Shown here: positions 2,375 through 61,954 of the stretch, piece by piece
How the letters are laid out: each line of letters begins with the position of its first letter
How positions within the stretch are numbered: the stretch's first letter is position 1
From: Ulota crispa
Lineage: Eukaryota > Streptophyta > Bryopsida > Orthotrichales > Orthotrichaceae
Assembly: GCA_963920765.1 (NCBI GenBank)
Contig: OY987243.1
Location: 4,464,001-4,528,000, forward strand
Length of the DNA: 64,000 bases
Reading direction: 5' to 3'
Made by a program: the position numbers and the translations under genes
The notes under the pieces: generated by a model
Told to the model about the DNA's origin: nothing
What the model saw: only the letters and a program-made list of their open reading frames with translations
Databases searched by the model: none

Positions 2375-2620
2375 TTAACCCCTAAAGGATGTTGTTGTTT
2401 TGTATACGGACTCCCGTGTTGTATACGGATGGGGTATTTGGATAGCACTTGAATCCCATTGGAATTGTAAATTTCAAGCCAAGTCAGAAACATAATACTG
2501 GTCAACTAAAATTTTTTGGGGAATTTTTGACATTTGTTGTAAAGTTTTTTTTCAAGTACTAAATGGTTCTCCTACAAATACATACAACACTTTTGGTAGG
2601 CAACATCCTTTAGAGGTTAA
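2375..2620. mobile_element. TTAA-flanked piggyBac-like MITE
   Basis: The element starts TTAACCCCTAAAGGATGTTG and ends CAACATCCTTTAGAGGTTAA, giving terminal inverted repeats of about 20 bases with one mismatch and TTAA at both ends. It is 246 bp long and non-coding. A diverged relative lies at 55797-56035, sharing internal words such as GAATCCCATTG, AAGCCAAGTCA and TTTTGGTAGGCAACAT. TTAA target duplication plus termini starting CCC is the hallmark of the piggyBac superfamily; the assignment of this non-coding copy is inferred from that. Confidence 0.7.
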
Positions 2621-2710
2621 GTTATTGGGTATGGGTGCTTCTACCAAAAGGGGTCAAAACTCAGCTCCTTTTCTGTGTATATTGGAACTCGAGGCATTGA
2701 GGGGGTTAAC

Positions 2711-4894
2711 CACTACACTAATAATGATAAATAGTGTTATGTTATTAATAGTGTTACTTGCACTTTTACCCCACTAACTCTAAATATCAAGTAGTTTACA
2801 TTTAGAGTTGCCTCTTACACACCACTGGCAACAACTTTGCTTCTGATAACTGTTGTGCCCACCTATGCGCCGCACTATTCTTGTGTCGTTCCTGCATGAT
2901 TCTATGTTTTGTTATCTCGCACTCTTGCCCTCCATCTCCTTGTGCGCTCTTGCGAGACTTGTGAGACATGTGCATACGTAGCTGCACCATCTGGCAATTG
3001 GCAAAACCTAGAAAAATCCTATGTGTTTTTGATTCAATAGTTATTTGCAGGATCCATGGTGGAAACAGGAGACCTTGCCGGAGGCAGCTCGATCTACAGA
3101 AGAGAGTGCACGCTTGCAAGATAGCAATCTTTTTTTGTCCCGTCTCGGTTTTATTTTGACAATTTTGCTAGCATTTTGAGCTAGATTTTGCTGAAGTTTG
3201 TGGAGGTAAGTGAATCAAAGCCCAGACTGGATTGCCAATTCTTAGTCTTGGTTTGTTTTGAAGGAAATGGCACTTGAAACAACTAATTGATGTCGATTTT
3301 CTTCAGAATGGTGTAGTTAGGATTTTGCCATTCAGCATTCAAGCAGTGGTGGATCATGCGGTTTTAGGGTTTAGGACATGAGGTTGGGCTTGATTGACAA
3401 GTCAATCGCTTGGGCTGTGGAGATTCTTTTTGTGCAAAAGAACCGATGTGGTCAAGTGTTGCACCTCTCAAGATTGATTCAGCCTCAAAATCTAAGTTCA
3501 GAAGAATGAGGTGGAGTGGCAAGCTGCCATGAACAAAAGGAATTTGAGAGCAAATGTCAATAATTGTGAGGAGCTCTAAGATAAGACATATGTGTACTTA
3601 TTGGCTCAAAGGATCCGATTGGACAGCACCAAAAGGGGGAGAGACCACCCTTTTTGGACGTAGCTGCTTGCTTGTCTTTGAAGTCACAATACATGTGAAT
3701 GTGGTGTCAATATTTGAGGAGTATCATGGGTTACAACCTTCTTGTTGGAAACAACAGTCGCTGCAAGTGTGTGCAAAGCTAGGGAAGTGCAAAGCTGGGG
3801 AGAGTAGAAGCAGTAGGCTTGTTTTACGTTGAATTGTATCTGTAAGGAAAAGTGTAGATGTACATTGATTCCGGCAATTGATTTGCGTGTACACTATGAC
3901 AAAGACCAGTAATATCATTGATGATTCAAGACCCTAGGTTTGTAATGCTCTAGTGGTGACTGATGATGGGTGTGCTCTTCTTTAAGACTGTTATTGCTAA
4001 CTTGATTCCCATCATACTTAGCAAGTCAAGATTTTCCTGTCTAAAAGCATAGTCTTTTATGTACTTCAACCGTGGAGCCTTTACACTGACTAATCTTTTG
4101 AGCTTGACCGTGCGTCCAAGGTCTAACATTCTACAAGTCATTACAAGAGATTTGGACCCAAGAATGGGCCCCTTCCCCCAAAACTATGGGAACTTTGGGA
4201 ACAATTCCACAACACTTCCACATAGGCAATTTGCAGCAATTTGGCATGGCATTAGGGCGACCACGTCAGACATTATTATTTAATTATTTTTTTTGGAAAA
4301 AAACTTTTTTTGATTTTTTTAATTTTTTTTAATTTTTAATTTTTATTATTATTTTTCTGACAACCAGCAGTGGCATTGGAAACATCCAAACTCATAGGCC
4401 TTTCTTGGGTCCAAATCCCTTGTAATGAATGCTAGATTGCCAAAGTTACTTTGGCACGAGTACCACTATGCTGGATGTGCTGCTATGTATGTGTCTCCAA
4501 ATTTTGTAAAGTACCCATTTGTGTGAAATGGTTGATTGCCCATGCAGCGAGAGGTATCCATTTGTGTGGAATGGCTGATTGCCTGTGTAGCAAAAGGAAG
4601 AAATAACAAATTGTCAATTTTCCTCCTTGAGTACCAATTTTGACATTCCTTCGAGGCTTACAACCTTTTGCATTTTTTATAAATTTGGTTTGTTTTTTTT
4701 GTAATGACCAAATGAAGTAATATCTAACACTAAATGTAAACTTGTAAAAATTTCATACTCCCAAAAACTACAATAATTGACAATTAGTGTATACGTTGAC
4801 ATTTAATATTGGTAACATTATGGAAATTGTTGACATTTAGTGTTAGGCTTTGTAATTAGTGTTGCCAACACTATTTATCATTATCAGTGTACTG
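2711..4894. mobile_element. Probable 2.2-kb CACTA-like non-autonomous element
   Basis: The left end CACTACACTAATAATGATAA is matched by the reverse complement of the right end (CAGTACACTGATAATGATAA), with further matches inward (ATAGTGTT). AGTGTT words recur beneath the right end, as expected of CACTA subterminal repeats. No convincing 3-bp target duplication is visible (AAC on the left, CTA on the right), so the element is old or the edges are off by a few bases. The interior has mixed-GC tracts but no recognisable transposase. Its right edge lies a few tens of bases before the Argonaute leader. Confidence 0.45.
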
Positions 4895-5670: not shown

Positions 5671-8600
5671 ATGGAAGGCGCGGAGGGAGATGCTGAAGCG
5701 AGTCTTCCCCCGCCACCGCCGGTGCCTGAAGGAGCTCTTCCCGCCATAGCGCCAGGCTATGGAACTGGTGGTGGGGGTGGGCCGGCGGGTCACGATGAAA
5801 GTGGGAACGACAACGGGCGTAACGGAGGGAGAAATGGCGGAGGACCGAGTGGAAGAGCAGCCATGGCTGCACTCGCGCTAGTGCCAGCGATTCCAGTTCC
5901 GCGGAAGGCACCAAGGCCGGCATTTGGCAGGGTGGGGCGTCCAACTAGGTTGCTCGTCAACCATTTCAAGGCCACACTCACAAAGTCTGACGATGTCTAC
6001 CACTACAATGTGAGTTTTCTTCCGTCATCTTGCTGCTGCTGGTGCGAGGGGTTTTGGGCTTAAGCGTTGTGGAGTACCTTGAAGTAGGTCTTGTGGTTGA
6101 GTCACAACAACTCTCAATGTCTGGCGATGTGTATCTGTAGGTGTCGATCGAGCCGGCGCAGATAAATAAGAATATTTGTCGGGAGATTTTCACGAAGTTG
6201 AGGGAGACTTTTGGGGAGGCTGAGTGTGGAGGTAAGCAGGGTGCTTACGACGGCGAGAAATCTTACTTCACCAGCGGGAGTCTCCCTTTCAATACCAAAG
6301 AGTTTCCTGTGTTTCTGGACGACCGCAAAGGCCCCGCCTTTCGACCTGGTGAACAGGGAACAAGGCCGGGTGATAGCCCGCCCACAGATAGCCCACCGCC
6401 AAGTAAGACTGACCAAGTGTTGAGGAAACATGGATTGTGAACCCGTTTGTGTGCCATTTGGATGCCCTAAATGATTGTAAGGTGCTCATGTTTGTGGTTT
6501 TCATTTTGTCATGCAGCGAGTCCAGGACAAGAGATTGTTCCGAAGAGGAGGAGGACCGTAGCGAGAGGCCGAGACTTTGTTGTCAAGATAGAATTTGCTG
6601 CGGTGATTCGAATGAGGGCCATAGGTGAGATGATGAGGGGGGCGATGGGGCAGGGTGACCATGACCAGGAAGTACGAGCACTTGATGCTCTGCGTGTTCT
6701 GGACATTGTTCTGCGTGAGAGCGCTTCACAGAGGTGCGTATATCGTATTTGCTACTGTCATTTGATGTTTTAAATGCTCCTGAGATTGTATGCTGTCTTA
6801 TCTGCAGACAGTGTATAACTTAGCCCTACTTTTTATCACCTTGCAGAGGATACCTTCTGGTGAGGGACAATTTCTTCCACCGGGATTTGGGTCCAGTTGG
6901 CGACTTGGGTGAAGGAGTGGAGGCTTGGAGAGGGTACCATTCGAGCGTCAGGCCAACCGGTTTAGGATTGACGCTAAATCTTGATATTACCATGACCACC
7001 GTCTTGAAGCCCATGCTCGTGGAAGAGTTTCTTAAGGAAAGATTCAACGTACGAGACCTCAAAGCTCTGCAAACAAGAGACTGGACGAAAGCGAAGAGCA
7101 TCCTGAAAAATGTCCGGGTCGAAACGGTTCACTTGCAAGTGTCCCGATTTCACAAAATTTCAGGGTTTAGTGACCGGCCTATCCAAGATCTCAAGTAAGG
7201 ACATCTCAACAGATAATCGTAGTGTGTTACGGAGTAATCAATCAAGTCCAAACTATATCTGGTGATGTGGTGTCGTTTGACCAATGATTGTTTAGGTTTA
7301 CGAAGAAGGTTAAACACGGTGATGGCAACGTAGAAGAACATGAAATGTCAGTGGAGGGTTACTATTTTGATGTTTACAAGTACAAAATGAAGTACCCGAG
7401 TCTTCCAGCACTAGATGTAGGCAACAAGAAGAAGCCAACGTTCATCCCAATAGAGGTAATCTCCAGGTTCCTTGTTTTCAGATTTCTGCTCTAACATTCC
7501 AATTGTTAGATCTCATGGCTTTGCAGAACTAGAGTTCACCCCCTTTTACAGCATTGGAAGAGTTATTTTTAAATTCCAAATAGTCATTTCAAAGTTTGAC
7601 ACTGTGATTTGTCTATTTTGAAAGTAATTTCGCAGTTTATTCCCGAAGGTGACACAAAAAAGTGTTCAGTAGGATGATTGTTGCTAGAAAACGTACCAAA
7701 ACCCCCCGAATTTTTAAATTTTTTGATCGTACCTTCAGTTGGCTTGCTCACCTCCAGCATTGGTTTATTTCTGCAGCTGTGCAAGATAGTTGAAGGGCAG
7801 CGATACACAAAATCCCTCTCGAGCGTCCAGAGAGCCAAGCAGATTTCGGCTTGCAAGCAGGGTCCGCAAGAGCGGCAGAAAATTTGTGAGAATGCGATGA
7901 ATGTGAGCAAGTACGGCACAGACAGGCTGGTTGCAGAGTTTGGCCTTCTCTTCGAGAACAGGCTGGCTAGTGTTAATGGCAGAATGCTACCATCTCCTCA
8001 GGTATTTATTTCACTCGTTTTGCGATGTGATACTGTATTGACAGTGGCATTGCTGGTGGAAATAATTTCATTTATAAATGTTTCTCCTTTGTGCCAACAG
8101 CTGGAATTTGGGAATGGGAGGACTGAAGAACCCCGGGAAGGGCGGTGGAACTTCAACAATAAGGTTCGTTTAGTTTCCGTTTGTCTGTTTCATGAACAGA
8201 AATCTCTTGCAGCTTCTGATTTTGCATTTTGCAAATATGTTTATATCGTCAATTGCCTGGATATTAGATAAAACCTGATATAGTTTTCTATTGGAATGCA
8301 GACCCTGAAGGAGGGAGTTAAAATAGATCCATGGGCTGTCGCTGTGTTCGATGGCCGCTGCCATGATGGGGAGCGTGTAGCGCAGCAGCTGTTGGAAAGC
8401 TGCACCAAACGAGGAATGAAGATGCGGCAGGCAATAGCGGTACAGAAGGAGCCCCAGAATGCTCAGGGCTTCTCCCCTGAGCAACGTGTCGAGCGGATGA
8501 TAACAGCTCTACGACCTCACAGGCCTGTTTTCATTCTGGTTATCTTACCTGAGAAAGACAGTCCCATCTATGGTAAGAAGTCTCATTCCATGTAATCTGG

Positions 8601-12301: not shown

Positions 12302-12621
12302 TAAGGTAGGAACACCCATAAGCTTTAGTGTCCCCATAACTGTCACCTCTAAATTTTAGGAAAATTTGTAGAAGTAAATAGATGTAATTACAAGGATGTA
12401 CAGCATGTGAACATGAAACCTTAGTGTTGGTTATGGGTACAATGGTAATTTGCTCTTTGAAAATTCACAACCTATTCTCACAACATCCACATAATACATT
12501 CAAAAGTGCAAACTCATTATTTTTCTGTTGCTAGCAAGATCCTATAGTTTGCTAGATGTTTATAATATTAGTCATCATGTTCAAAACCCTCAAACTAAAA
12601 TTTGTGGGTGTTTCTACCTTA
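12302..12621. mobile_element. AGGTAGGAACACCC-family MITE, copy 1
   Basis: Termini read TAAGGTAGGAACACCCATAA and (reverse complement) TAAGGTAGAAACACCCACAA. Removing the first two bases leaves TA on both sides, consistent with a TA target. Other copies are at 41949-42380, 58033-58354 and 62646-63040. No coding capacity. Confidence 0.7.
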
Positions 12622-13061
12622 CTCAAAATATACATAGAGTGACCCTCCAAGAAATCACATTAATCAAAATGGTGAAAACCAAGGACCGTTAGCTCATTAC
12701 AACTTGCAAAAAAAATCAATAAAAAAATAACACTCAAGTTGCTCAAAAACTTAGAGCACCAAATTTTACAAGGGACAGAACATAGGTTTGGGAGTCTCCC
12801 AAGATGGGCACCTTCCACACCTTGTGCCCACAAGGGTTGACCCTCTTTGGAGTCAACACCCACTTACAAAGAAGAGGCCTTGCCCAAATTGCTCCTTCTC
12901 ACGGAATGTCAAAATGAAGATAAATTTGAATGGGCATATAGGTCTTGGAATTCCACACCTTCAATAAAAGTCTCAAAAAATCACAAAAACTAGTTTAGTT
13001 ATAGGTACATGCTCAAAATCTATTTGTCCCCCAAGGAGACAGTTGGGCCTTTAGAGGTTAA
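12622..13061. mobile_element. Truncated TTAA-family element (right part)
   Basis: It ends in GGGCCTTTAGAGGTTAA at a TTAA that also opens the next element. Its interior (CTCAAAAAATCACAAAAACT, AAATTTTACAAGGG and others) resembles parts of 13058-13777 and of 57974-59244. A left terminus is not visible, so it is probably truncated. Confidence 0.45.
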
Positions 13062-13777
13062 CCCTAAAGGACCAACTGTCCCCTTGGGGGACACATGAGA
13101 TTTTGGTCACGTACTTACAACTAAACTACTTTGTGTGATTTTTTGAAACTTTTATGGGAGATTGGGAATTCAAAGATCTACTTGGGTATCTAAATTTTCT
13201 TCATTCAGAGGATTATTGAAGAAGTTATGTAAAAAATTATCAAAACTAGGGGAGGAGGTGCAAGTTGGGCAATCCAAAAAATCTCTAAGTTACATTTTTA
13301 TTAAACACAAATTTGAAATTGGTTTTTTAGGTTTACATATGTGAGGGAAGCTTTGATCCATTCAATTTCAATTAATGATATGAAAGTTATGAAGAGTTTT
13401 AATTTGCAGGGACTTAGGTATGGTGCAAATTCAAACTCTTCATAACTTTCATATCATTAATTGAAATTGAATGGATCAAAGCTTCCCACGCATATGTAAA
13501 TCTTCAAAATCAATTTCAACTTTGTTTTTTTTTATACATGTAACTTAGAGATTTTTTGGATTGCCCAACCTACACCTCCTCCCCTAGTTTTGATAAATTC
13601 TTACACAAATTCTTCAATAGTCATCTAGATAAAGAAAAAATCACATACCCTAATAGGTCTTTGAACTCCCCATCTCCCATAAAAGTTTCAAAAAATCACA
13701 CAAAGTAGTTTAGTTGTAAATACATGCCCAAAATCCCATGTGTCCCTTGAGGGGATAGTTGGTCCTTTTTTAGTTAA
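13058..13777. mobile_element. TTAA-flanked fold-back element with ~350-bp arms
   Basis: It starts TTAACCCTAAAGGACCAACT and ends AGTTGGTCCTTTTTTAGTTAA. Nearly the whole element is one inverted repeat: each arm of about 340 bases pairs with the other around a centre near 13410, as shown by TTCAATTTCAATTAATGATA on the left and its complement on the right. It is 720 bp and non-coding; the apparent 60-codon frame in the left arm is incidental. TTAA borders place it with the piggyBac-like group. Such a transcript would be a long hairpin. Confidence 0.75.
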
Positions 13778-14021
13778 CCCCTGAGTGCCCAAGGGGCCAA
13801 AATATGGCCTCTCATCTTTGAAAATTTTCCTTATTTGACCGTTATAATCTTTTCAATGGTTTGATGAAAGGACGTGTCCTTTCCTTGGAGCTGTGGGCCT
13901 CTTTTTACTACCAATTGGTACGATCAATTTTTGTGAATCTCTTTTAGGTGATAATTTGATTGGAATGAGTTCCAAAAGATTTGGATTTGAGTGAACTTGT
14001 GCTGGGCGCTCAGGGGTTGAA
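13774..14021. mobile_element. TTAA-flanked MITE, CCCCTGAGTGCCC subtype
   Basis: It opens at the same TTAA that closes the previous element: TTAACCCCTGAGTGCCCAAG. It closes GGGCGCTCAGGGGTTGAA, where TTAA has decayed to TTGA. About 248 bp, like the same-subtype element at 56032-56280. Confidence 0.65.
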
Positions 14022-14429: not shown

Positions 14430-15317
14430 TTAACCGGTAAGGGACCAAACAAATTTTTCTCCAAAAACTCTCCAAAACTGCCATTTTTAGAGCATCAACC
14501 AAATTTGAAAACAAAAATAATGTTATGCATATGTGACCGTAGGATCTTGTAGAAGAATAATTGTGGAAAAAATTTAGAGTTTCCACTGCGTTGATTGGAA
14601 GATAGAATGTTTGAACATACAAAAACGTCTTGTGAAGAATTGGGCAGCTACCCTTTAGAAGGTGAAATTCCTAAGGCAAAAAAATTCATGTGGGAGGTGC
14701 TTCTCTAAATTCCTTATTCCACCTAAGTAAAGTACTTGTCAAAAAAGTTTCAAATCATTTGGAATTGTATACATATGGAAAAAAAGTAAGTATAAAGAAG
14801 TAGAGAATGATTCAAAACACACAAAAATTAAGAATTTAATTATAAAAATGAAAAATGCCAATCCCAATGGTTGAAATGTTGTAATAACTAACCTCCATCC
14901 TTGGATTTTTTTTCTTTCAAAATGTTGAAAATTGAGTAAAAGAAAGGACTTCAAAGTTTATTTTAGAGTAGAGAATTCATAATTGCCTACAAACTCAAAA
15001 TCCTCATAACTTTCATCTTGGTGATCAAAACAAAATGTTTCAAAGTTTCCTTCATTCACGTAAATATCCTTAACCAATTTGATATTTTTGATTTTGAAAA
15101 ATCTGTCTAGGCTACCCGCCGAGTGAAAAAAACAAATATTAGGCCATAAATTTTTACTCATAATTCCAAATGTCATGAAATTTAGTGCATATGAAAGACA
15201 AACCTTGTCCCCTTATTCTATTGAACTTTCAACCTAAAGTATGAAAAACTCCAATCACATGTTCTTGCCCAAAATCGCTATGTTGCTAAAAAGGGGATCT
15301 GGTCCTTTAGGGGTTAA
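14430..15317. mobile_element. TTAA-flanked 0.9-kb element, copy 1
   Basis: It starts TTAACCGGTAAGGGACCAAA and ends CTGGTCCTTTAGGGGTTAA. The 888-bp interior aligns along its whole length with 59730-60649 (for example ACTGCCATTTTTAGAGCATC, TGTGACCGTAGGATCTTGTA, CCTCATAACTTTCATCTTG). Short frames are not conserved between the two copies, so it looks non-coding. Confidence 0.75.
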
Positions 15318-16730: not shown

Positions 16731-17578
16731 ACCTAGGTTAGACCTTTTGATAAGTTGTTTTTGATAATAGAATCCATCATGAGACACAAAAGTTGTAATG
16801 GCTTTATAAATTGGCACACTCATTTTTAAGCATATTAACCTTTAAAGGACCAAGAAGCCCACTTTGGGCTTTTGGATATTTGAGCAAGCATTTTTCATGT
16901 AAATACATGAGACAAGAGTATGAAAATTAGGGTGTATTTGTTCATATTGATAAGCTTGCATTTTTTCCAAAAAATTTGGAATTGAATAATTTTGAGTGAG
17001 ATATGGTACCATATGTGATTTTGTTGTCAACACGGGCATTCCTAAAAAACAAAAAAACAAAGAGATTGGGAAGGGTGTTGCCTACAAAGTGTTCAAAAGC
17101 AGTTTACAATGACTCAGTCAGTGGGCAAAATTATCAGTCAACTCTCCTTGACTACATAATAACTTCTATCTTAATTTTAATTTTTAGAAAAAAATGCCTT
17201 TGGCAAGTACTTTACATGATGTTCTAGGCTTACACAAAATGGATTTTCTAATTGAGATTTACTACTATAAGAATCTCTTCAGTGAAGTTTTCTTAGTGTC
17301 ATGACAATTTCAACAAAGTAGTTTTTGCTTCCAAATTTTTTCCACTATGTTTTAAGCATTGGATGATCATGAAATTTGTGAGGCATATAGCTAACTTCAT
17401 ACTCTACAAGAAATCCAAATTGCACAAGAAATTCAGAAAGTGAAAGATACCATTTTGGATGGCCAAAATAAAAATTGACATTTTAGAGAAGCTTCAAAAA
17501 AAGTTTTGATCCTATTTTGAGTGTTATTATCTAATGAAATATGCCCTTACAAAGTCTAGAAGTTTGAGAGGGTGTATA
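16731..17578. other. Intergenic with one orphan TTAA terminus
   Basis: At 16835 the sequence TTAACCTTTAAAGGACCAAG followed by AAGCCCACTTTGGGCTTTT matches the left end of the element at 54190, but no closing end was found downstream. It is probably a truncated or rearranged copy. Otherwise nothing recognised. Confidence 0.4.
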
Positions 17579-18470
17579 GTACCCCTCAATATGTTTAAGT
17601 TCGGCTCATTTTGCCCTTCACAAAACTTTGGTTAAAATAGAGTATAGTTTGCATTTTTTAAACTTGAATTAAGGTTTTGTAAATCTTATGCACTCTCAAT
17701 CAAGCATACCAAATTTTAGTTCCAAAAAATCAAAACCCCATTTTTGGTAAATTGTTTTGTATCAAAATCACGGTTTTACATGAAAATTAATTGAAGAAAA
17801 TTGGTAATGAATTTTTAAAATTTGATTGCATGGGTATGTAGGAAACATTCATATACACCCTTTTCATGTTGAGAAAATATCATTGAGTAACACAAACATG
17901 ATCTACAAAGAATTAAACATGAAATCAACATGAGGTGTGGTAGGACCACTATTTGTAAAATACATATTTCTTGATTTTAGTTATATTTTGCTATTTGACT
18001 CATATACTATGACTAAATTTGTATCTATGAGCATGACAATATGTTCACTTAACCAAAAACTAGTTAAAAAATAGAGATATGTATTTTACAAATAGTGGTC
18101 CTACCACACCTCATGTTGATTTCATGTTGATTTCTTTGTAGATCAGGTTTGTGTTATTTAATGATGTTTTCTCAACATGAAAAAGGTGTATATGAATTTT
18201 TCCTACATACCCATACAATCAAATCTCAAAAATTCATTACCAATTTTCTTCAATTAATTTTCATGTAAAACCGTGATTTTGATACAAAACAATTTACCAA
18301 AAATAGGGTTTTGATTTTTTGGAACTAAAATTTGGTATGCTTGATTGAGAGTGCATAAGATTTACAAAACCATAATTCAAGTTTAAAAAATGCAACCTAT
18401 ACTCTATTTTAACCAAAGTTTTGTGAAGGGCAAAATGAGCCAAACTTAAACATACTCAAGAGCATTGTAC
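17579..18470. repeat. Long inverted repeat, ~395-bp arms, ~100-bp loop
   Basis: The left arm (about 17579-17975) and right arm (about 18065-18470) are reverse complements with only scattered mismatches. Examples are TGGTAGGACCACTATTTGTA on the left against TACAAATAGTGGTCCTACCA on the right, and GTAAAACCGTGATTTTGATA on the right. The outer ends both carry GTAC next to AAGTTTGGCTC-type sequence. No gene lies in the loop. A transcript through it would fold into a long double-stranded RNA. No TTAA or CACTA terminus is visible, so the element class is unknown. Confidence 0.85.
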
Positions 18471-19969
18471 ATAAATAAGCAACAATAAAGATTTTAGGGC
18501 CAAATTATTGAAAGAAATTCAAAAATTTGATCCACTAATCATTTTACTTAGAGAGGTTAGTTTCAAACTAGATGAACATGTAAACACAAAGGAATTTTAG
18601 GCGTTAAACAAAATTCAATGCCAATTTAACAATTCCAAAGTTTATAAACAATTACAATTTAAACTTGAAAGGTTGTAAAAGTATGTAATCAATATTGTTC
18701 ATACCAAGGTAGGAGATCCATAAATCAACCATTTTAGCCTATCTAACTCATTAATGACATCAATAGATTTTTGAAGGAACATGACACTCATTCCTAGACC
18801 GTGAATGCAATTAAAACCCAAGCTGAATTCAAGCCTCCTACCTTACTACATGGAACTCACAATTTGAAAGACATTAATGCTGATGTATATTAATTGTTGA
18901 TTTTACAGTTACTAATAATTATTGAATCCATGCCACTAAATGCACTAGCATGATTAGCCATTAACACTTCCAACTTATATAGTTTAGAATTTGATATTTT
19001 TAAGATGCAATAAGAACAACTTCAAACTTATCGTTAGTAGCAACAAATAACCTCAACTCAACAACCTCCAAAGCGTAACAAGACGTTGTATATGACTCAA
19101 AATGAAACGCTCTCGGTGGCATATTTAGTTCTCGAGGCACACCTTTTAGCCTTCAAAATCAAAATGATGTCAACAAGTGTCACTATTGTGTGATGTGTTG
19201 CTCTAAATAAAGGGCTTTCAGAGCCAGCAACAAAATTTGCAAGTGTTGTGAGTAATATGGAAGCATTATCAATAAAGTAGTGTATCAGGTTAATTCATTA
19301 TTTTCAAATGGTTCAGTTTCTATTTACTTTCATAATAATAGTCATTTATTAAGTTATGATGGTTCTTAAAAAATCAAAATAATCACTAGAAGAAATTTTC
19401 TTCTTTTTAATTTTCTTCTTAGCTTTGGTACCAATCCTTTTTATTCTTATTGTATGTTATCTTTAAAAATGAATTATTTTATAGCTAAGTTCTACTTTTT
19501 GTCTTATGCAAATATTATTACATTTCTTTAATCAAAAATTTATTGAAGAAACCACAAACCTTCACAATGAAATAAGACAACCTATAAGTAGATTGTCATG
19601 TTGTCATAGTATAGAGCTATTTTTTTGTTAATTGGATTTTGTTGAATTTTTGAATATACATAAACTCTAGAAGGAAAAATTATGTTATAGTATATGAATA
19701 TGTCGTATTTAGAAATATAATTCTCAAAGCAGAGCTAGGTTGCTAGGTTTTTATGTATTTTTTATGAATTTTTTTAGCTTGAAAGAAGCTCTCTTGTGGA
19801 TCAAGTAAAGTTGTCTTGCTATTGGCCTTTGTATATGCATTATGGCACATGCTTGTGGAGTACTTGTTAGACAAAGGGTACAAATTCTAGGTTTTATTTC
19901 TCCTCAACAAGATTTGAGATTGGTTTTTTCCTTTGTTTCAGATTCTTATAACAAGTGCTACTTACATGA
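18471..19969. other. AT-rich intergenic, nothing recognised
   Basis: About 1.5 kb without coding frames of note. A short CACTAGAAGAAATTTTCTTC word near 19384 resembles a CACTA terminus but has no partner. Confidence 0.5.
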
Positions 19970-19972
19970 CAT

Positions 19973-20144
19973 CACTAGTAGAAAACTAGAAAAAAAAATA
20001 CGTTAAAGACTTAAACTCAACATACCCAACTTGATGTTGTTTTGTTCCAAACGCAAAATCTTGCGTTTGGAACAAAACAACATCAAGTTGGGTATGTTGA
20101 GTTTAAGTCTTTAACGTATTTTTTTTTCTAGTTTTCTACTGGTG
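19973..20144. mobile_element. CACTA-type MITE forming a near-perfect 84-bp hairpin
   Basis: Arms 19973-20056 and 20061-20144 are complementary with essentially one mismatch near the tip (CACTAGTAGAAAAC against CACCAGTAGAAAAC), leaving a 4-base loop between CCAAACGCAA and TTGCGTTTGG. The element is bounded on both sides by CAT, a 3-bp target duplication. Termini and duplication fit the CACTA superfamily. The near-perfect pairing implies a recent insertion and a potential small-RNA precursor. Confidence 0.9.
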
Positions 20145-23860: not shown

Positions 23861-24485
23861 AGATAAGAATAAGATTTATATTTTTTTGGAGAAAAGTACT
23901 AGTTTTATATCTGGTAGTTTTAGGTTTTCAAACATTTTTTTGCAATTTCAATTGGTTGTCAATATTCTAACCGCCAGTTCTCCCTGAACCTTGGATTAAA
24001 GGCATGGATTTGGAATAGGAATAATCTACTCTTCAAATTTTAATGCGTTTTGTCACCCTTTCTAGATTTCAAAATATGTAATTGAATTTAGATTTGGTGA
24101 ATAATTCATTACATGAGAAGGAGAAAATGGATCATTTTTAGTTCACATCTTTAAGGTAGGAGGCTCATAAACCATTGAGGCTCTAAAACCGCTCACATTC
24201 ACAAATGTATCCGGTCTGTACCTGTTACTTTTCACAAGTTTCAACAATGTACTAGAAGTGTACATTTGAGGAGGTAGGCAATTTAGAGACCTATGCAACT
24301 TCAACTTCAAAATATCATGACTAATTCTACAAAACTCCAAAAAATATGAAACAACTTGGGTTAGATATCAATTCCTCTTGTCTTTCAAGAAAAACTTACC
24401 AAAAAATATTTCAAGAAGAATTACCTCCTCAAAGTTTAGTTCCAGCCTTTAGATGGTTGGTTTCAAGGTTTTTTTTGGCACTGTA

Positions 24486-24714
24486 CAATGGGGGGACAAA
24501 AAGATTGGGAAATTTTGAAATTGCCTAAATATTGTAAAATTGCTACAAAATAATTTTGCAGCTAGTAAAATTTGTGAACTTAGTGGTGTGAAAGTTGAAA
24601 ATTTAAGCTTATTAGCAATGTTTCCTCCCACTTGAGCTAAAAGTCAAAATCATATTTGAGATTAGTGGAGTTGGGTGGTGGCTTAAGATTTCCCAATCTT
24701 TTGTCCCCCCACTG
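24486..24714. mobile_element. TA-flanked Tc1/mariner-like MITE
   Basis: The left end CAATGGGGGGACAAAAAGAT and right end (reverse complement CAGTGGGGGGACAAAAGATT) form inverted repeats of about 27 bases, and each end abuts TA. Termini of the CAGTGGGGG-ACAAAAG kind next to a TA duplication are typical of Tc1/mariner elements. It is 229 bp, non-coding, inserted in the loop of the larger fold-back. Confidence 0.65.
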
Positions 24715-24862
24715 TATAGTACATGAACATGAAGTATCCTGCGTGTCTGCCCAAGTATGGAGGATTTTGCGAGGGGGGCCGATTCAGTGGTCAAAATCAA
24801 ACAAAACAGTTTCAAATTTGGCTACAAGAAGCCAAAAAAAAAACCTTAGTCAGTTTATGAGC

Positions 24863-25004
24863 AGAGCATCTCCACTTGAGCACCTAAAGAAAGCCGGAAC
24901 CGCGATTTACACATATTAAGAGCCATCAGATCATGATATGATGGCTCTTAATATGCGCAGATTGCGGTTTCGGCTCTCTTTAGGTGCTTGAGTGGAGATG
25001 CTCT
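24863..25004. mobile_element. GAGCATCTCCACT-type hairpin MITE
   Basis: A 142-bp hairpin: AGAGCATCTCCACTTGAGCA left, with TGCTTGAGTGGAGATGCTCT right, and inner arms meeting at GATCATGATATG. The flanks TATGAGC and TATGGGC suggest a target duplication of 7-9 bases. The same terminal word AGCATCTCCACT opens the element at 49842-50238. Confidence 0.7.
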
Positions 25005-25440
25005 ATGGGCTGGAACTAAATTTTGAGGAGGTAATTCTTCTTGAAATATTTTTTGGTAAGTTTTTCTTGAAAGACAAGAGGAATTGATATCTAATCCAAG
25101 TTGTTTCATATTTTTTGGAGTTTTGTAGAATTAGTCATGATATTTTGAAGTTGAAGTTGCATAGGTCTCTAAACCGCCTACCTCCTCAAATGTACACTTC
25201 TAGTACATTGTTGAAATTTGTGAAAAGTAACAGGTACAGACCGGATACATTTGTGAATGTGAGCAGTTTTAGAGCCTCAATGGTTTATGAGTCTCCTAGC
25301 TTAAAGATGTGAACTAAAAATGATCCATTTTCTCCTTCTCATGTAATGAGTGACTCACCAAATCTAAATTCAATTACATATTTTGAAAATCTCAAAACGC
25401 ATTAAAATTTGAAGAGTACATTACTCCTATTCCAAATCCA

Positions 25441-25809
25441 TGGAATGGAAGTGGGGTTGCCCGGCAGAGAACCGGAACCTGAGGCTGCCACGCTGGCCTC
25501 CCGAGATCTATTGTCATCTCTCCTGATCTGATCTCCTTGGGAGCACCCCCATTCCCACGCACCAATACCAGCAGCACCAGCATTGTCGACAGCTTGATCG
25601 CAGCATTCGCAGGCCATAACTTAGTCTCCATTTCTCGATTTCATAGGATTCGTCTCACTGCGCGGATCTTGCAGCGGTTTTTTTTCTCGCTCACGAGCTC
25701 GCTGTAAGCTCGCTGGCGGTGAAAAAGTTGGAGTTTTGGATCGTATTAGGGTTTGGAGGTAACTTAGACGCAAGGACACATACACACACGTTGTTTCCCA
25801 GGGAGTCGC
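25441..25809 (+). promoter_or_regulatory. Promoter/leader of the nuclear poly(A)-binding protein gene
   Basis: A GC-richer 370-base block precedes the ATG at 25810. It contains TTAGGGTTT at 25747-25755, the reverse of the telo-box AAACCCTAA, an element common in plant promoters of translation and RNA-processing genes. No clear TATA box is seen. The transcription start is not resolved. Confidence 0.45.
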
Positions 25810-34226: not shown

Positions 34227-34720
34227 TTAACCCCTAAAGGATCAAGTGTCCATTCAACTGATACTTGAGAACTTGGGTAGGGTTGTATGAAGTTAATTTT
34301 TATTGGATGTTCATAAAATTGTTACATTGTGTAGATATGTATCTCCAAGCAAAAATGTATATTTTTCCCCAATTGGATGTCTCATTCAAAAGTTATGTTG
34401 TCCAAATGAATTTGGGTAGCTTGAGCAATTTCAACATTTGTGAATCTATTATGCTAAAACTTTCATCAACAATTAAAATTTGGCATGTATGTAACTCATA
34501 AAACATGGTTTTCACTTCAAATGTTATAACCTTACAATCCATGCAGACAAATGGGCTAATTTTTTTGCACCTATTGATTTATTTTTTTAACACACTTTTT
34601 TACACTTTTTACAATTGAGATTCAAAAAGAATTTTTTATTTTCAGTTTTGAGCAATGCACTAAAAGTTGGCAATTTTTGAGAATTTTCTCAAAAAACACC
34701 CTTGGTCGTTTAGGGGTTAA
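34227..34720. mobile_element. TTAA-flanked piggyBac-like element, 494 bp
   Basis: It starts TTAACCCCTAAAGGATCAAG and ends CTTGGTCGTTTAGGGGTTAA, near-perfect 20-base inverted ends including TTAA. The interior is AT-rich and non-coding. Confidence 0.75.
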
Positions 34721-39968: not shown

Positions 39969-40381
39969 TTAACCCATGAAGGGCCCAAACACCCTTTGCA
40001 GCCATAATGTGCTGTTTTGCTGGTATTCAGGGATATCGTAGCATTTTCAGATTTTTGTGTACATTGACGACTTGTAGGAAATTTCAAGCCGGATCTGATC
40101 GAACATTTTTTTTTGAAAAGAGACCTTGTCAAATTTTGCAAGCAGAGGTTTGTATCCGCACTTGCATACGGTATAGGTACGGTATTTGATTTCTACGTCG
40201 ACGAGGTCGCCTTGCCTCCACAACAACACAAGCCGTACCAGACACGTGACTGTATTGCAGAATTGCATGGCCCATCTCTAGGTGGCCCAACGCCTGTTAA
40301 GGTTGCCTAAACCATGCGTATCCCAATCCGCTACGGATACGTACCTATGTCTTGAAGGCCCAATGGCCCTTCAGGGGTTAA
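39969..40381. mobile_element. TTAA-flanked element, CCCATGAAGGGCCC subtype, GC-rich interior
   Basis: It starts TTAACCCATGAAGGGCCCAA and ends GGCCCTTCAGGGGTTAA. Unlike other TTAA elements here, the middle (about 40140-40330) is GC-richer and holds a 66-codon plus-strand frame of unknown nature. That frame does not resemble a transposase I know. Related by ends to 59513-59733. Confidence 0.65.
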
Positions 40382-41948: not shown

Positions 41949-42380
41949 TAAGGTAGGAACACCCATAAGCGTTAGTTTAAGGGTTTTGAACATGACTACT
42001 ATAAATAAACATTTAGAAAATTATAATATCTTGTTAGCAACAAAAAAATAATGAGTTTGTACTTTTGAATGTATTATTTGGATATTGAGAGAATAAATTG
42101 TGAATTTTTAAAGAGCAAACTATCGTTGTACCCATAACCAATACTAAGGTTTCATGTTCACAATTCCTTGTAATTACATCTATTTACTACTATAGATTTT
42201 CCAAGATTTTAGAAGTGACAATTATGGGGACACTAAGTCACTAATGCTTATGGGTGTTCCTACCTTCACTACGGAGAAACCTTGGTCGAATTGACAAAAA
42301 AATGTGACCTAATCTATAATAACTATAGATTAGGTCACATTTTTTTTGTCAATTTGACTATGGTTTCCCCGTAGTGCTTA
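41949..42380. mobile_element. AGGTAGGAACACCC-family MITE, copy 2, interrupted
   Basis: It starts TAAGGTAGGAACACCCATAA. Its right end reads GCTTATGGGTGTTCCTACCTT and is then interrupted by the CACTA hairpin 42267-42376. Removing that element and one copy of CTT restores the expected CCTACCTTA. The interior is shared with copy 1 and copy 3 (GGTTTCATGTTCAC, TGTAATTACATCTATTTACT). Confidence 0.75.
42267..42376. mobile_element. CACTA-type hairpin MITE in the end of another MITE
   Basis: A 110-bp hairpin: CACTACGGAGAAACC left, GGTTTCCCCGTAGTG right, with inner arms TGTGACCTAATCTATA and TATAGATTAGGTCACA. It is bounded on both sides by CTT, a 3-bp target duplication. Confidence 0.9.
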
Positions 42381-53227: not shown

Positions 53228-53469
53228 TTAACCCCTAAAGGACCAAGCAGCACTTTGCTACCAATATAATACGAGGTATTTTTTTTATATTTGGAATGCG
53301 TATACAGCTTTATTATATTTAAGATCAACAAAGAAGTTAGAATATAGATCATTGTTGTTCTAGTGAGGTAGTCAAGATCCCAAATAAAAACTTTGTGTTG
53401 GTAGCAAATGTCAATTATACATCAGCATACATATTATGTATTATAGTAGCTTGGTCCTTGAAAGGTTAG
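53228..53469. mobile_element. TTAA-flanked piggyBac-like MITE, 242 bp
   Basis: It starts TTAACCCCTAAAGGACCAAG and ends CTTGGTCCTTGAAAGGTTAG, so the right TTAA has decayed to TTAG. Non-coding. Confidence 0.7.
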
Positions 53470-54189: not shown

Positions 54190-55105
54190 TTAACCCCTAA
54201 AGGACCAAGGAGCCCACTTTGGGCTTTGTGAGAACTCGGGCAGGCTCTATTGACTTTGTAATTTGGGATTTTTTCATGAAATTTTTAGAATGGATGCTAC
54301 TCATCATTATCTACAAGTGAAGCTTTATTTCAAGTCATTCTGATAAGTAATGCAAAAGTTAGAAGGTTTATTCAATTTCAATGTAAAATAGGGCAGCAAA
54401 AAATATATTCTTTTTTTATTTTTTATTTTTTATAGAATTTTACAGATTGATACCTACTCAAAAAAAATTAAATCACTCAATTCCAAACAATGAGGTAAGA
54501 GTTAAAAGGAGTTTTATTTTGCGGGTAGTGAAGGTAGGAAGAGGGTAGAAAAAACATATAAAGTTATCTTTTACCCTCAATTTTGAAAATTTTCAAATGA
54601 AATGAAAAGCAAAGTTACTGATTGTTTGTTAGAGCATTCTCACCATTGGAATTAACAATTTTCAAATTATTCCAAAACTCATTAGCATATTAGTTATATC
54701 TTTCATTCATTAGTACCTTTCACTTTACAATTTTTGTAAAAATGAATCCATTTTTTTTGGTTAAATTTTTTTATATATGATTTCAACCCATTTTCCAACA
54801 TATCGCAAAATTTGCACAAGAAATACAACATACGTATTTTTCTCTAAAAAGTTTGAAAAATAAAACTTCACCTTCTAGAAGAACTAGAAAAGCCTACATT
54901 TTGAAATTTAGCCAGATTGATCTTGCAATTGGAGGAGATATTCATTCTAAAATTTTGGGATAGTATACTTGTGCAAGTCAACCAATGGATCCTACGGTTG
55001 GATTTGTTAAAAAGTAAGTATCAATGAAGAATTTGACCTTAGTTTAGGGACTAGTATTTTGAAGGAGTTTTGGACCTCTAAACACAAAAGAATTTTAGGG
55101 GTTAA
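54190..55105. mobile_element. TTAA-bounded element, ~0.9 kb, ends weakly matched
   Basis: It starts TTAACCCCTAAAGGACCAAG, then GAGCCCACTTTGGGC (a small inner palindrome). The candidate right end is AATTTTAGGGGTTAA. Only the outer 13 bases pair, so the right border may belong to a different copy. Confidence 0.45.
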
Positions 55106-55796: not shown

Positions 55797-56035
55797 GCAA
55801 CCCCTAAAGGATATTGCTATATTGTATGCGCTCTCATGTGTTATGTACTAATGGGATATGTGGGTAGCACATGAATCCCATTGAAGCTATTAATTTTAAG
55901 CCAAGTCATAAACATATTATTGCTTGATTACAAATTTTCGAAAACTTTTGATACTTGACATAAATCTATTTCTTCAAGTATTAAATGGTCCTTGTATGAA
56001 TACAGCCAATATTTTTGGTAGGCAACATTCTTTAA
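55797..56035. mobile_element. TTAA-family MITE related to 2375-2620
   Basis: Starts CAACCCCTAAAGGATATTGC (TTAA decayed to TGCAA) and ends GGTAGGCAACATTCTTTAA. The interior parallels 2375-2620 throughout. Confidence 0.65.
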
Positions 56036-56280
56036 CCCCTGAGCGCCCATGTCAAATTCACTCAAATCCATACCCTTGTGTAGTTAGTCAAATAAAAGTA
56101 TTACCTAACTAGAATCAAATAGCTTGAGTTTTTTTTGAGTGGTAGTAAACACATGCCTAAAGGTACATGAGAAAGTACAAGTCGTTTAACTTTACCATTA
56201 AGAAGAGAATAAGAGTCAAACTTGAACTTTTTTGAAAACTAAACGCCCCATTTTGGGGCTCTGGGGCACTCAGGGGTTAA
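56032..56280. mobile_element. TTAA-flanked MITE, CCCCTGAGCGCCC subtype
   Basis: Starts TTAACCCCTGAGCGCCCATG and ends GGGGCACTCAGGGGTTAA; 249 bp. Its opening TTAA is the closing TTAA of the previous element. Same subtype and length as 13774-14021. Confidence 0.75.
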
Positions 56281-57261: not shown

Positions 57262-57378
57262 CACTACAAGGGAATTGTGTCAAATTGGACATTTTTTGTA
57301 GATTTGACCATGTTGATTTGGACATTTTTTTGTCATTTTGGACACATTTAGTCAATTTGGACAATTTTTCTTGTAGTG
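57262..57378. mobile_element. CACTA-type MITE with TTT target duplication
   Basis: 117 bp: CACTACAAGGGAATTGTGTC left, GGACAATTTTTCTTGTAGTG right, flanked by TTT on both sides. Internal TTTGTCATTTTGGACACATT is shared with 11997-12147, so these are two copies of one family. Confidence 0.8.
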
Positions 57379-57973: not shown

Positions 57974-59244
57974 TTAACCCTTGAAGGCCCAAGTGGTCCC
58001 TTAGGGGCCAAGTGGGGTTTTGGGCATGTACCTAAGGTAGGAGCACCCATAAGCGTTACTATCCCCATAACCGCCACCTCTAAAATCTTAAAAAATCTAT
58101 AGAAGTAAATAGATGTAATTACAAAGATGTACAACATGTGAACATGAAACCTTAGCATTGGTTATGGGTGCAATGGCAATTTGCTCTTTAAAAATTCACA
58201 ACATATTCTCACAATATCCAAATAATACTTTCAAAAGTGCAAACTCATTATTTTTTTGTTGCTAATAGAATCCTATAATTTGCTACATGTTTATTAATAG
58301 TCATCATGTTCAAAACCCTTAGTTTGACACTTATGGGTGCTCCTAGGTACCTTATAGCTAACCTACTTTATGTGATTTTTTGAAATTTTTATTAAAGATG
58401 GGGAATTCAAAGATCTACTTGGGCATCTACTTTTACTTCATTTCAACATTTATTGAAGAATTTATGCATGAATAATTGAAAAACACGGAAGAAGCGGGCA
58501 GCCCAAAAAAATGTATTTTTTTTTTAAATAAAAATTTGAAATTGCTTCTTTAGATTTTTGTATATGTGGGAAGTTTTTAATCATTCAATTCTGATTGATG
58601 AGATGAAAGTTATGAGAAGTTTTAGTTTGCTAGTAGGTATGGGACTTCCAAACCTCCATTTCTTTTGCCCCTTGTAAAATTTGATGCTTTAATTTTTTGA
58701 GCTCTTTGTGTATTTGCTTTTTGACTTTTTTTTTCTCAAGTTGTAATAGACTAGGATTCCTTGGATTTTACCATTTGGATCAAAGTAATTCAGATTTCTG
58801 AATTTACATATATCCTCCAACTTTGTCTAGTGTATATGCAAATTTCATGACCTTATAGCATTGCATGATTTTACAAAGTATGATTCACATCTACAATTCA
58901 TTTGAAAATTCTCCCATACACACCAAACTTGGTCTTCTACATGGGAAAAAAACCTCAGTTTTGCATAGAGCAATTTTTTTTTGATATAGGAGTGGTCAAA
59001 GTGTACTAAAAAGTTTGGGCAGTAGGGAAAAAACTTTTTTTTTACTTCAGATATCAATATCTCACTCCTGTACATCTAGAATGAGCTAATTCATTTCCCA
59101 CAAGTACCTCCCATAGTCTAGGGCAAAACCTTACGGTTGGATTTCCAAAAAGAACTCTTTTTCCTACCATTCTACTTATTCCCCCAAAAGTGGCAATTTT
59201 TAGTGACTTTCACACAAAAAAAGGCTTGGGCCTTTAGGGGTTAA
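57974..59244. mobile_element. TTAA-flanked 1.27-kb element carrying a nested MITE
   Basis: It starts TTAACCCTTGAAGGCCCAAG and ends CTTGGGCCTTTAGGGGTTAA. The interior outside the nested MITE (58033-58354) matches 13058-13777 and 12622-13061 (for example TTATGTGATTTTTTGAAA, GGGGAATTCAAAGATCTACT). Without the insertion the element would be about 0.95 kb. Non-coding. Confidence 0.7.
58033..58354. mobile_element. AGGTAGGAACACCC-family MITE, copy 3
   Basis: Starts TAAGGTAGGAGCACCCATAA and ends TTATGGGTGCTCCTAGGTACCTTA (diverged terminus). It is nested in the TTAA element and flanked by TA on both sides of the AGG...CCT body. The interior closely parallels copy 1 at 12302. Confidence 0.75.
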
Positions 59245-59512
59245 CAAAATTTACAAGCTATAAGTACCCTTTGTGCACCTACTATGTTGTTATTAACAAA
59301 CTCATAATTTTTTACTACAAACAAGTGGAAATAGGCCTTAAGTCTACCTAACTCATCAATAACAATAATAGGTATTTGAAAGAATACGACAATTGTTCTT
59401 AGAATGTGTAAGCAATTAGAACAATTAGAACTTGAGCAAAATTAGAGCCTCTTACCTTAGTCCAAGACTCCAAGGTTTGCTAGAATAGCCGCATTTGAGA
59501 GCACTGGATAAC

Positions 59513-59733
59513 TTAACCCCATGAACGGCTCGAAAGCCCTTTGTGGCCATATGTACAGACGTATTTGGGCTGCTATGAGGGCTTTCCAAAAAAAATTATG
59601 CACCCACCATCATACAACCCTTTGATATGTATGATTGTAACACTTAATTTCTAACTGATTCAAACTTTTGAATATTGATTGCGACCATATTTGGTACCAT
59701 AGCCCTAGAGCCTAAGGGCCCTTCGTGAGTTAA
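59513..59733. mobile_element. TTAA-flanked MITE, CCCCATGAACGGC subtype
   Basis: Starts TTAACCCCATGAACGGCTCG and ends GGGCCCTTCGTGAGTTAA; 221 bp. Its closing TTAA opens the next element. End sequences resemble 39969-40381. Confidence 0.65.
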
Positions 59734-60649
59734 CCCCTAAAAGACCAAGCAAAGTTTTCACCAAAAACTCTTCAAAACTGCCATTTTTAGAGCATCAACC
59801 AAATTTGAAAACAAAAACATTTTTATGCATATGTGACCGTAGGATCTTGTAGAACAATGGTTTTAGAAGATGCTGAAAAAATTTCAGAGTTTTCCACCAC
59901 ATGGATTGGAAGTTAGAATGGTTTGAATATTCAAAAATGTCTTGTGAAAAATCGGGCAGCTACCCTTCAAAAGGTGAAATCCCTCAGGGAAGAAGGCCAT
60001 GTGGGTGGTGCTTCTCTAAATCCCTTATTCCACCTCAGTAAAGTACATGTCAAAGAAGCTTCAAATTAGTTGGAGTTGTATTAACATATGGAAAAAAATT
60101 AGTAAGTAAAAAGAAGTAGAGAATGATTCAAAACACTAAATCGTTAAGAATTAAATTGTGGAAATGAAAAATGCCAATCCCAATGGTCATAATGTTGTCA
60201 TAAACAATGTTCATTCTTTGGTCTTGTTTTATTTTCAAAATGTTGAAAATTGAGTAAAATAAAGGACTTCAAAGTTTATTTTGGAGTAGAGAATCCATAC
60301 CTGCCCGCAAACAAAAAATCCTCATAACTTTCATCTTGTTGATCCAAACAGAATGATTAAAAGCTTCCTACATTCACATAAATCTCCTAAACCAATTTAA
60401 ATTTTTTGTTTTTGAAAAAAGTGTTTTTGAAGAATCTACCCAAGTTGCCCGCCAAACGTTTAACAACATAGTAAGCTATAACTTTTTACTCATAATTCCA
60501 AATATCATCAAATTTAGTGCATATGAAAGATAAACCTTATCCCCACATTCTGTTAAAATTTCAGCCTAAAATATGAAAAGCTCCAATCACAGGTACCTGC
60601 CTGAAATCGCCATGTTTCTAAAAAAGGGGTCTGGTCCTTTAGGGGTTAA
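59730..60649. mobile_element. TTAA-flanked 0.9-kb element, copy 2
   Basis: Starts TTAACCCCTAAAAGACCAAG and ends CTGGTCCTTTAGGGGTTAA. It aligns end to end with 14430-15317, with scattered substitutions and small indels. Non-coding. Confidence 0.8.
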
Positions 60650-61017
60650 GTTAGGAGTACTCAGATCCTGGAAAAAACAATCTGAGGAAGTCAGATATCT
60701 AAGCAAGCATCCCAGCGCCGTAAAAGCTAATCAAATCTGGAACTGGGCCGGAGCCTGGAGGTTGCAGCTTTGCTGCAGGGTGTACGCCAGTGTTGGGCGT
60801 GTATGTAGCAGGTGAAATCAATAAAATAAACATTGCATACATCAGCGAATGTCATAATGCAAGAAATAAAAAAAATCACGGTCAAGACACATATTTGTAC
60901 ATTCATGATAATTTTGGATAAAACTAAACAATTTTTCCATGTGCATTATATTCTCTACGTCCAAAATTAGTTGGACGGCTTGGGTTTCTACTGTTTAATT
61001 TGTGTTTTCTTGTTAGT
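60650..61017. other. Short unique stretch between TTAA elements
   Basis: A mixed-GC patch (60655-60815) has an open frame that I do not recognise. It starts inside the preceding element, which argues against a real gene. Confidence 0.4.
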
Positions 61018-61954
61018 TTAACCCCTAAAGGATCATGGCCTTTGTTTTGTCAAACAACATTCAAAATTATCATTTCTATTGCAAAGAGTAAAAAAGTTTG
61101 AAAATTGGTCTTTTTGCATGTCTAGTTGCAAGATCTTGTACTAAACTTGTATAAGAATATATCAAAAATAATTCAAAAACTTTGATTGCATAGATTGCAA
61201 GATATTTGAATTTAAAATGTAAAAAGCAAACTTTTTTGCATACTCCATGATTAGATTATTTGACTTTGAATTTTTTTAACTTGATTTTTTTGCACCACAA
61301 AGTTTGGAGCTTTATTTTTGCTGGCAGCTAGTTCAGTTGGGAATCTTTGGAAAAAAATCAAAACAAAAAATATTTAATTTTCATTCTCAAAAAAAACAAT
61401 AGGTAGAAGAAGGTATGAGATCAAATAAAAACTTAAATTGTTAACAACCGTACTATGGAATTGAAACATAATAATCCCAAAAGTGAGATTGTTCTAGCAA
61501 GCAAACTTCACCATTTGTGACAATTTTTTTTGAAAAAATGTTAAATTTGTATTCAAGAATGAAGTTTATAAGTTATTTTTCAAGAAGATGCTTAAATTGG
61601 CCAAAATACAAGATTGTCCATAACTTTCTCATAACTAGTCCAAATGGAATGAATCAAAGCTTCAGATATAGACAAAGATATAATCTATGAGGAAAAAAAA
61701 TTAAAAAATTCAAGTTTTGTAAAAAAAAATTGATGCCCGGACTCTCCAAATTTGTGCTTATTTGGACATAACTTTAGCTCCCTGGCATAGATTGGAATAA
61801 AAATTATATTCCCCAAAAGCTAATGTGTTTTCCTATCTTCAAAAAAAGTTTCAAAAAATCAAAACAAAAGTTGAGGCCGTAAGTTTGAGGCTGTAAGTAC
61901 TTGCCCAAATTCCCATTTGTCCCCCGTAGGAACAATGGTCCTTTAGGGGTTTAA
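61018..61954. mobile_element. TTAA-flanked 0.94-kb element
   Basis: Starts TTAACCCCTAAAGGATCATG and ends AATGGTCCTTTAGGGGTTTAA. The right inner sequence (TTGCCCAAATTCCCATTTGT) resembles the ends of 13058-13777. Non-coding. Confidence 0.7.

Follow-up and report, generated by a model that had tools for sequence, protein, structure and literature searches.

The 64-kb stretch of Ulota crispa DNA analyzed here (C2:4464001-4528000 of a genome of 274.8 Mb in 157 contigs; "the window" below) is populated by short elements that lie between TTAA sites and share inverted tips, and these are almost certainly piggyBac elements of the non-autonomous kind, or miniature inverted-repeat transposable elements (MITEs), in the nuclear genome of a moss. 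The same TTAA-CCCCTAAAGGACC tips are found on larger elements of this genome, which encode a transposase of the piggyBac family. One MITE family or more, with members at 57974-59244 and in locus L005 (936 bp), amounts to such an element lacking about 7.5 kb or more of its middle.

The original prediction, made from the window alone, had described TTAA-bounded elements with shared inverted tips and had named 11 pairs of ends. All 11 were read, and TTAA is present at both ends in 10 of them, one of which has an extra T between TTAA and GGGG at 61954; the right end of the eleventh, at 53469, reads TTAG. Imperfect tips occur at the right end of 13058-13777 (TTAACTAAAAAAGGACC) and at both ends of 59513-59733 (CCCCATGAACGG and CTCACGAAGGGCCC). 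The 20-base tip TTAACCCCTAAAGGACCAAG has 14 matches in the window with three or fewer mismatches, against 0.01 expected (100 dinucleotide shuffles, largest count 1), and a degenerate tip motif has 24, against a mean of 1.7 and a largest count of 6 in 30 crude 2-mer shuffles. The description is thus borne out, and the population is larger than had been noticed: elements at 54190-55105 (with a perfect 20/20 tip), 16835-18607, 13774-14020, and 55797-56035 and single tips at 13061, 37567, and 40729 had been overlooked. About 16 TTAA-type intervals occupy 9,004 bases or 14.1% of the window, three nested inserts being subtracted, and several of the 16 have one end that is mutated, decayed or undefined. 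When five transposase frames were compared with the window by tblastn, one chance-level match (E = 0.25) was the only result, and at E ≤0.01 another 54 transposase segments had no match. The elements are thus non-coding, as had been supposed. They are listed here; only 57974-59244 is assigned a strand, and "8-kb elements" are the transposase-bearing elements discussed below.

2375-2620: TTAA-bounded MITE of 246 bp inserted in another repeat; tips read; unoccupied relatives have one TTAA or TTTA.
12302-13061: partial piggyBac MITE with a single reverse tip at 13061, an undefined left end and a nested TA-type repeat (12302-12616); bases 604-760 align at 79% with the 8.8-kb element around its 5′ tip.
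13058-13777: palindromic MITE made of two copies of the 8-kb element 5′ end, with a TTAA common to each neighbour; 13043-13792 is self-complementary (85% over 754 bp), and bases 1-205 align with 1-206 of the 8.8-kb element (82%).
13774-14020: TTAACCCCTGAGTGCCC MITE, a copy of 56032-56280 (69% to 56280-56031), right TTAA mutated to TTGA.
14430-15317: MITE of the 59730-60649 family (82% over 921 bp).
16835-18607: MITE split by an 889-bp palindromic TA-type insert (about 17577-18465); L004 1501-2383 matches both insert flanks.
34227-34720: MITE of 494 bp with one mismatch per tip and further copies in L001, L002, and L042 (blocks of 71-80% identity).
39969-40381: MITE with tips CCCATGAAGGGCCC and CCCCTGAAGGGCC, both read.
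53228-53469: MITE with a perfect left tip and the right TTAA mutated to TTAG (tips read and tip search).
54190-55105: MITE of 916 bp with a perfect left tip and right tip CCCCTAAAATTC; 39 other scored copies.
55797-56035: decayed copy of 2375-2620 (76% over 237 bp).
56032-56280: MITE of the TTAACCCCTGAGCGCCC family, sharing a TTAA with the preceding element 55797-56035; tips read.
57974-59244, plus strand: internal-deletion derivative of the transposase-bearing 8-kb elements, with a nested TA-type repeat (58034-58345).
59513-59733: MITE with imperfect tips, both read.
59730-60649: MITE whose TTAA at 59730-59733 is common to the preceding element 59513-59733 (tips read, alignment).
61018-61954: MITE whose right end resembles the 5′ end (bases 782-934, 73-75%) and whose left tip resembles the 3′ tip (bases 1-49, 76%) of the 8-kb elements.

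The piggyBac transposase core (PF13843, DDE_Tnp_1_7) has at least 120 matches in the genome, a lower bound obtained from 116 scored candidates out of 527 at first look; all are above the curated cut-off (best E 1.3e-73), they are spread over contigs C1-C11, and matches were found in 0 of 14 control genomes. By direct hmmscan, five of six frames match PF13843 with E values from 1.2e-25 to 4.1e-67. A phmmer search of PDB with a stop-free 389-residue copy returned only piggyBat (9c0f, 2.6e-24) and Trichoplusia ni piggyBac (6x67, 7.6e-20) at E ≤0.01, and the aspartates of VDE, TDNFFTS, and GVDIVDQ in this copy align with aspartates of both. The three catalytic columns of 30 aligned domains (L009-L038) hold D in 27, 22, and 26 cases, and the 15 departures are 12 N, two E, and one H. 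These domains are diverse, with pairwise amino acid identities of 27-81% (median 35%).

Most copies are interrupted: 110 of the 120 match rows contain stops, the other 10 rows (eight loci) having none inside the matched stretch. Decay of methylated cytosines is expected to give TAG- and TGA-rich stops and a D-to-N bias. The stop codons in the 30 domains are 64 TAG, 37 TGA, and 16 TAA, and because of this mix and of the D-to-N and E-to-K changes, the copies look as if they have decayed mostly by C-to-T type changes, probably through cytosine deamination.

Outside the core, an upstream coding region (...YLFCR.IAK.LG) that ends about 1.3-1.7 kb before it is common to L039, L040, and L042, and the same type of region was detected in L009, L013, and L014, with 25-61% amino acid identity. 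It has no Pfam match above a cut-off in these six loci and could represent either a 5′ exon or a second gene. As no such region was detected in the extended loci L012, L022, L025, L026, L034, and L038, the elements linked to the window MITEs do not share it. As to the C-terminal cysteine-rich zinc domain of piggyBac transposases, a loose regular expression finds a CxxC...C...H-like motif downstream of the core in six of 30 loci; of two downstream frames scanned, that of L040 had no Pfam match and that of L041 none above a cut-off.

The tie between the MITEs and these transposases lies in the ends of long elements. Within 1.5 kb of the 30 domains the 17-base tip (four or fewer mismatches) was found in no case, because the elements are longer than the loci compared. 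Window positions 58650-59110 align at 73-82% with DNA 3′ of the transposase in L025, L026, L034, and L038, and the 3′ tip positions predicted from that alignment were confirmed in all four flanks, which contain TTAACCCCTAAAGGACCAAG with 0, 1, 1, and 3 mismatches; homology to 57974-59244 extends to the very tip in each. Further upstream a 5′ tip was found in three of the four (L025, L026, and L038), and three transposase-bearing elements of 8,829, 8,530, and 8,255 bp, nested insertions included, are bounded by the MITE tips. In all three pairs of these loci, the start of homology is no more than one base from the TTAA tip (oriented positions 427, 762, and 930). In five of the six pairs among all four loci, the end of homology is equally close to the 3′ tip, the L025-L026 block stopping short. 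The original prediction had proposed a search for a piggyBac-family transposase flanked by the same termini, with autonomous relatives of another superfamily as the contrary outcome; the three 8.3-8.8 kb elements are what it sought, and the larger elements with the same tips encode a PF13843 transposase. Together with the PF13843 matches themselves, these elements support its assignment of the window elements to a piggyBac-like group.

Since 57974-59244 aligns with both ends of the 8-kb elements up to the tips (bases 1-64 with the 5′ tip, 77%, and bases 766-1271 with the last 509 bp of the 8.3-kb L038 element, 77%), it is an internal-deletion derivative of transposase-bearing elements. Similarly, the 936-bp MITE at L005 1501-2436 consists of the last 447-524 and the first 154-187 bp of 8-kb elements, to which it is 74-88% identical. 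These two have every property of a MITE, being short, non-coding, high in copy number and made of both ends of a transposase element; the 54190-55105 family has the copy number, and the full set is not established for every window family. Besides 57974-59244, one or both ends are shared with the 8-kb elements well past the tips in 12302-13061, 13058-13777, and 61018-61954, while about 50-120 bases at a tip are shared by 14430-15317, 34227-34720, and 59730-60649, and only 18-28 tip bases by 39969-40381, 53228-53469, and 54190-55105. Element 16835-18607 shares only its nested palindrome with them, and no match to the three 8-kb elements was found for 2375-2620, 13774-14020, 55797-56035, 56032-56280, and 59513-59733. 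Presumably the last groups go with other transposase lineages.

The same general tip form is seen at either end of three more transposase elements (5.0-5.5 kb), which brings the elements with two tips to six:

C3:13130262-13135288: 5-kb transposase element with both tips.
C2:15046195-15051296: 5-kb transposase element with both tips.
C4:14100870-14106325: 5-kb transposase element with both tips, and TCAA on its right.

Both ends of locus L022 carry CCCCTAAATGCCC, a variant tip, and a tip was also found on the 5′ side of L012. A tip near the transposase of L042 was dropped as evidence of linkage, as it belongs to a separate neighbouring MITE (6847-7815).

The target site can be read at 2375-2620, which is inserted in a repeat such that 39 other places span the join with 84-89% identity. 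In an alignment of eight of these places and L006, all nine unoccupied sites hold the site once, as TTAA in five and TTTA in four, so that the single TTAA foreseen for empty sites is found, in part as TTTA. Given that the transposase family is piggyBac, we take the target to be TTAA rather than TA. We also note tip repeats of 7 or 8 bases (TTAACCCTTAACCCC...) at the L038 3′ tip (C8:11105483-11105490), at L005 1494-1501 and at L042 1187-1195, which are possibly marks of imprecise excision or of insertion beside a tip.

The earlier call of plant DNA is correct, and the host is more precisely a moss. Contig C4 holds a LEAFY gene (SAM_LFY 1.2e-27 and C_LFY_FLO 8.4e-51 in profile searches), and because its DNA-binding exon is nearly identical to PDB 4bhk (104 of 106 residues, E 9e-73), which we take to be the LEAFY protein of Physcomitrium patens, we assign the genome to the mosses; the other four LEAFY sequences in PDB score 7e-51 or worse, and the D in KMRDYVHCY is, we assume, the moss type. 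The window itself carries an Argonaute gene between the elements, with five of eight scanned frames matching Piwi, ArgoN or ArgoL2 and two of these five exceeding the curated cut-off. Besides LEAFY, five extra SAM_LFY-like domains were seen, at L068 (C1:33973746) and four further places, that of L068 being near a weak BED-type zinc-finger match below the cut-off.

Several observations weigh against the piggyBac interpretation or limit its reach. No intact transposase with MITE tips was found, and the four copies linked to window MITE tips all carry stops (two to six each) within the domain. No 3′ tip was found at L012 among the six loci whose flanks were examined, and no 5′ tip within an extra 4 kb upstream of L034. 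At 20 further transposase loci an inward tip lies downstream in 14 and an outward tip also in eight, a count that is weak because the genome is dense with tips. Several window MITEs align with the linked elements at the tips only or nowhere. A second insertion site, where L006 has a MITE in the repeat that also carries 2375-2620, is weaker than the first: the window and L059-L066 provide nine unoccupied relatives, which hold one 4-bp copy reading TTAC or CTAC, and two of them have a gap in the alignment close to the site. Finally, because TTAA is palindromic, a 4-bp duplication of TTAA and a 2-bp duplication of TA next to ACCC tips look alike in the sequence.

This last point leaves room for the proposal that the true duplication is TA and that the elements are Tc1/mariner members whose tips are extended; TA suits the unoccupied sites equally well, including the four TTTA sites of nine and the TTAC or CTAC of the second site. 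We regard it as extremely unlikely, as the transposase has the PF13843 core and its PDB relatives are piggyBac and piggyBat alone, and TTAA is kept at both ends of nearly all the elements first named. TTAA targets are not unique to piggyBac, and Kolobok and Sola3 use them as well. It is conceivable, then, that another TTAA-specific transposase of one of these kinds moved MITEs whose ends merely resemble those of piggyBac: for several window families no full-length partner was found, and our searches did not include Kolobok and Sola transposases. That same-tip full-length elements carry PF13843 and align with MITE interiors up to the tip, and that CCCYT... tips also bound other transposase lineages, makes this very improbable. 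Animal or fungal contamination, either of the window or as the source of the transposases, might be suspected given that piggyBac is mainly known from animals, fungi, and protists (PMC10813416, in the part available), but it is refuted by linkage, as the transposases lie on C1-C11, ten of which are contigs of 15.8-41.4 Mb, with LEAFY on C4 and the Argonaute gene among the window elements; we give it practically no credence.

Domestication is of another kind, as it concerns only some of the PF13843 genes, which would be host genes and not transposons. The candidate is L041 (C1:1180709-1181995), in which the two matched core exons are stop-free and hold the three aspartates, with what looks like a GT-AG intron; the 3.7 kb upstream showed no 5′ tip. 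A 3′ tip-like sequence with one mismatch lies about 2.0 kb downstream of it, and the prevalence of stops in the PF13843 rows also argues for transposons, so that we consider domestication unlikely, though a real contender for a few loci.

Under the piggyBac interpretation, the known biochemistry of this family suggests that the transposase would have attached to the tips, cut the element out by DD(D) catalysis, with TTAA hairpins, and inserted it at a new TTAA site. MITEs that had retained the tips and lost the gene would then have moved in trans to high copy number, and the transposase copies may later have decayed, mostly by changes of the C-to-T type. The original prediction held that the lineage "had, or has" an active piggyBac transposase; the past tense is well supported, and the present tense is not, as the tip-bearing transposases examined are interrupted by stops.

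Genome-wide, the 20-base tip has 23,140 matches with two or fewer mismatches against 0 for a reversed control, and the degenerate tip TTAACCCYTVAHBGMCC has 19,680 against 1. At two tips per element, the latter would correspond to roughly ten thousand elements or more. The window has 10 tips (two or fewer mismatches) in 64 kb, a density above that of the genome, and therefore its 14% coverage cannot be scaled directly to the whole. The 54190-55105 family has 1,399 first-look candidates; among the best 40, which were scored, the 39 non-window copies span from base 12 or lower to base 915 or higher and are 88-92% identical to the window copy, and this fits a past burst rather than very recent movement. 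The shared-TTAA junctions at 13058, 13774, and 59730, with a decayed one at 56032, had suggested self-targeting, a preference for existing tips. This was ruled out: nine exact head-to-head junctions occur in the genome against up to about 32 expected by a crude estimate that assumes the 10,998 exact tips are hit like any other TTAA.

Other repeats lie in and near these elements. The insert at 17577-18465 in MITE 16835-18607 is an 889-bp near-perfect palindrome (91%) at a TA, and its unoccupied site is seen in L004; close to the transposase, L012, L022, L025, L034, and L038 also have palindromes of about 400 bp, and L026 has one of 876 bp. A second small repeat family, TA-AGGTAGGAACACCCATAAG..., occurs at 12302-12616, 41949-42266, and 58034-58345, the last copy being nested in a piggyBac MITE for which L043 and L005 show the site without it. 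At 19973-20144 is a 172-bp hairpin with arms 98% complementary, which starts CACTAGTAGAAAAC and has CAT on both flanks; from these features it looks like a CACTA-type MITE. A 1.44-kb foldback element at 24003-25442 has arms of about 450 bp that are 94% alike.

Most of what is known of piggyBac comes from animals, and reports from land plants are rare; this workhorse of genome engineering is regarded chiefly as a transposon of animals, fungi, and protists. The abundant and diversified moss set widens its documented range into land plants, supplies plant-adapted transposases for study, and suggests that a large class may be missed in the usual catalogues of plant MITEs. We tentatively entertain, at somewhat less than even chances, the broader idea that mosses have their own old and strongly diversified piggyBac radiation (median identity as above), with intron-containing transposase genes, an extra upstream coding region in several lineages, and piggyBac DNA among the largest DNA-transposon components of this genome. 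If so, moss piggyBac would escape surveys that classify plant MITEs by Tc1/Mariner, Harbinger, hAT, Mutator, and CACTA signatures.

In the partial open-access literature, repeat databases aside, we found no plant piggyBac case of this abundance, and absence from print is not established by this. A survey from 2025 that covers 207 plant genomes, including four bryophytes (PMC12550479), recognizes in its main text five MITE superfamilies and Micron, without piggyBac, and a term search found neither "piggyBac" nor "TTAA" there. A P. patens transposon study does not use the word piggyBac, and in the available parts of PMC7466625 and PMC9631980 the term is absent, PMC10619864 having only "piggybacking"; PMC10794571 and PMC8086355, also in part, were included in the comparison. 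In the accessible portions of other sources, an angiosperm review lists piggyBac as a MITE class, plants appear as hosts of the piggyBac biotechnology tool, and one abstract states in general terms that piggyBac has been isolated from plants too. For vascular plants, the parts available of PMC10004981, PMC6890710, PMC8319324, and PMC13180808 use "PiggyBac" as a MITE class or a repeat-library label, and they report minute amounts, with 1230 copies in C-fern (0.00%), one in Stipa, and 60 in Stellaria. No transposase is tied to MITEs in those accessible parts, whereas the moss has 19,680 tips and at least 120 transposase matches.

The moss MITEs are like the Stowaway and Tourist MITEs of plants in being small, non-coding and high in copy number with inverted ends, but the latter have TA and TAA/TTA targets and other transposase superfamilies (in part from the available text of PMC10004981). 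Closer are the CMITEs of Acropora corals, which as far as the accessible text of PMC2872659 goes are TTAA MITEs related to piggyBac-like elements and can form tandem arrays; they differ in their animal host and in having interiors conserved between families, whereas the best-linked moss family is a plain internal deletion. The T. ni piggyBac and Myotis piggyBat transposons (6x67 and 9c0f) share with the moss elements the DD(D) core with aligned aspartates, the TTAA target and the CCC tips. The T. ni element is 2472 bp long (PMC10813416, part seen), and in contrast to these two systems the host here is a moss, the elements measure 5.0-8.8 kb with nested insertions, six loci have a conserved upstream coding region that was not detected in the window-linked loci, and the transposase lineages are strongly divergent among themselves. 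What the window displays is the ordinary piggyBac mechanism in an unexpected host.

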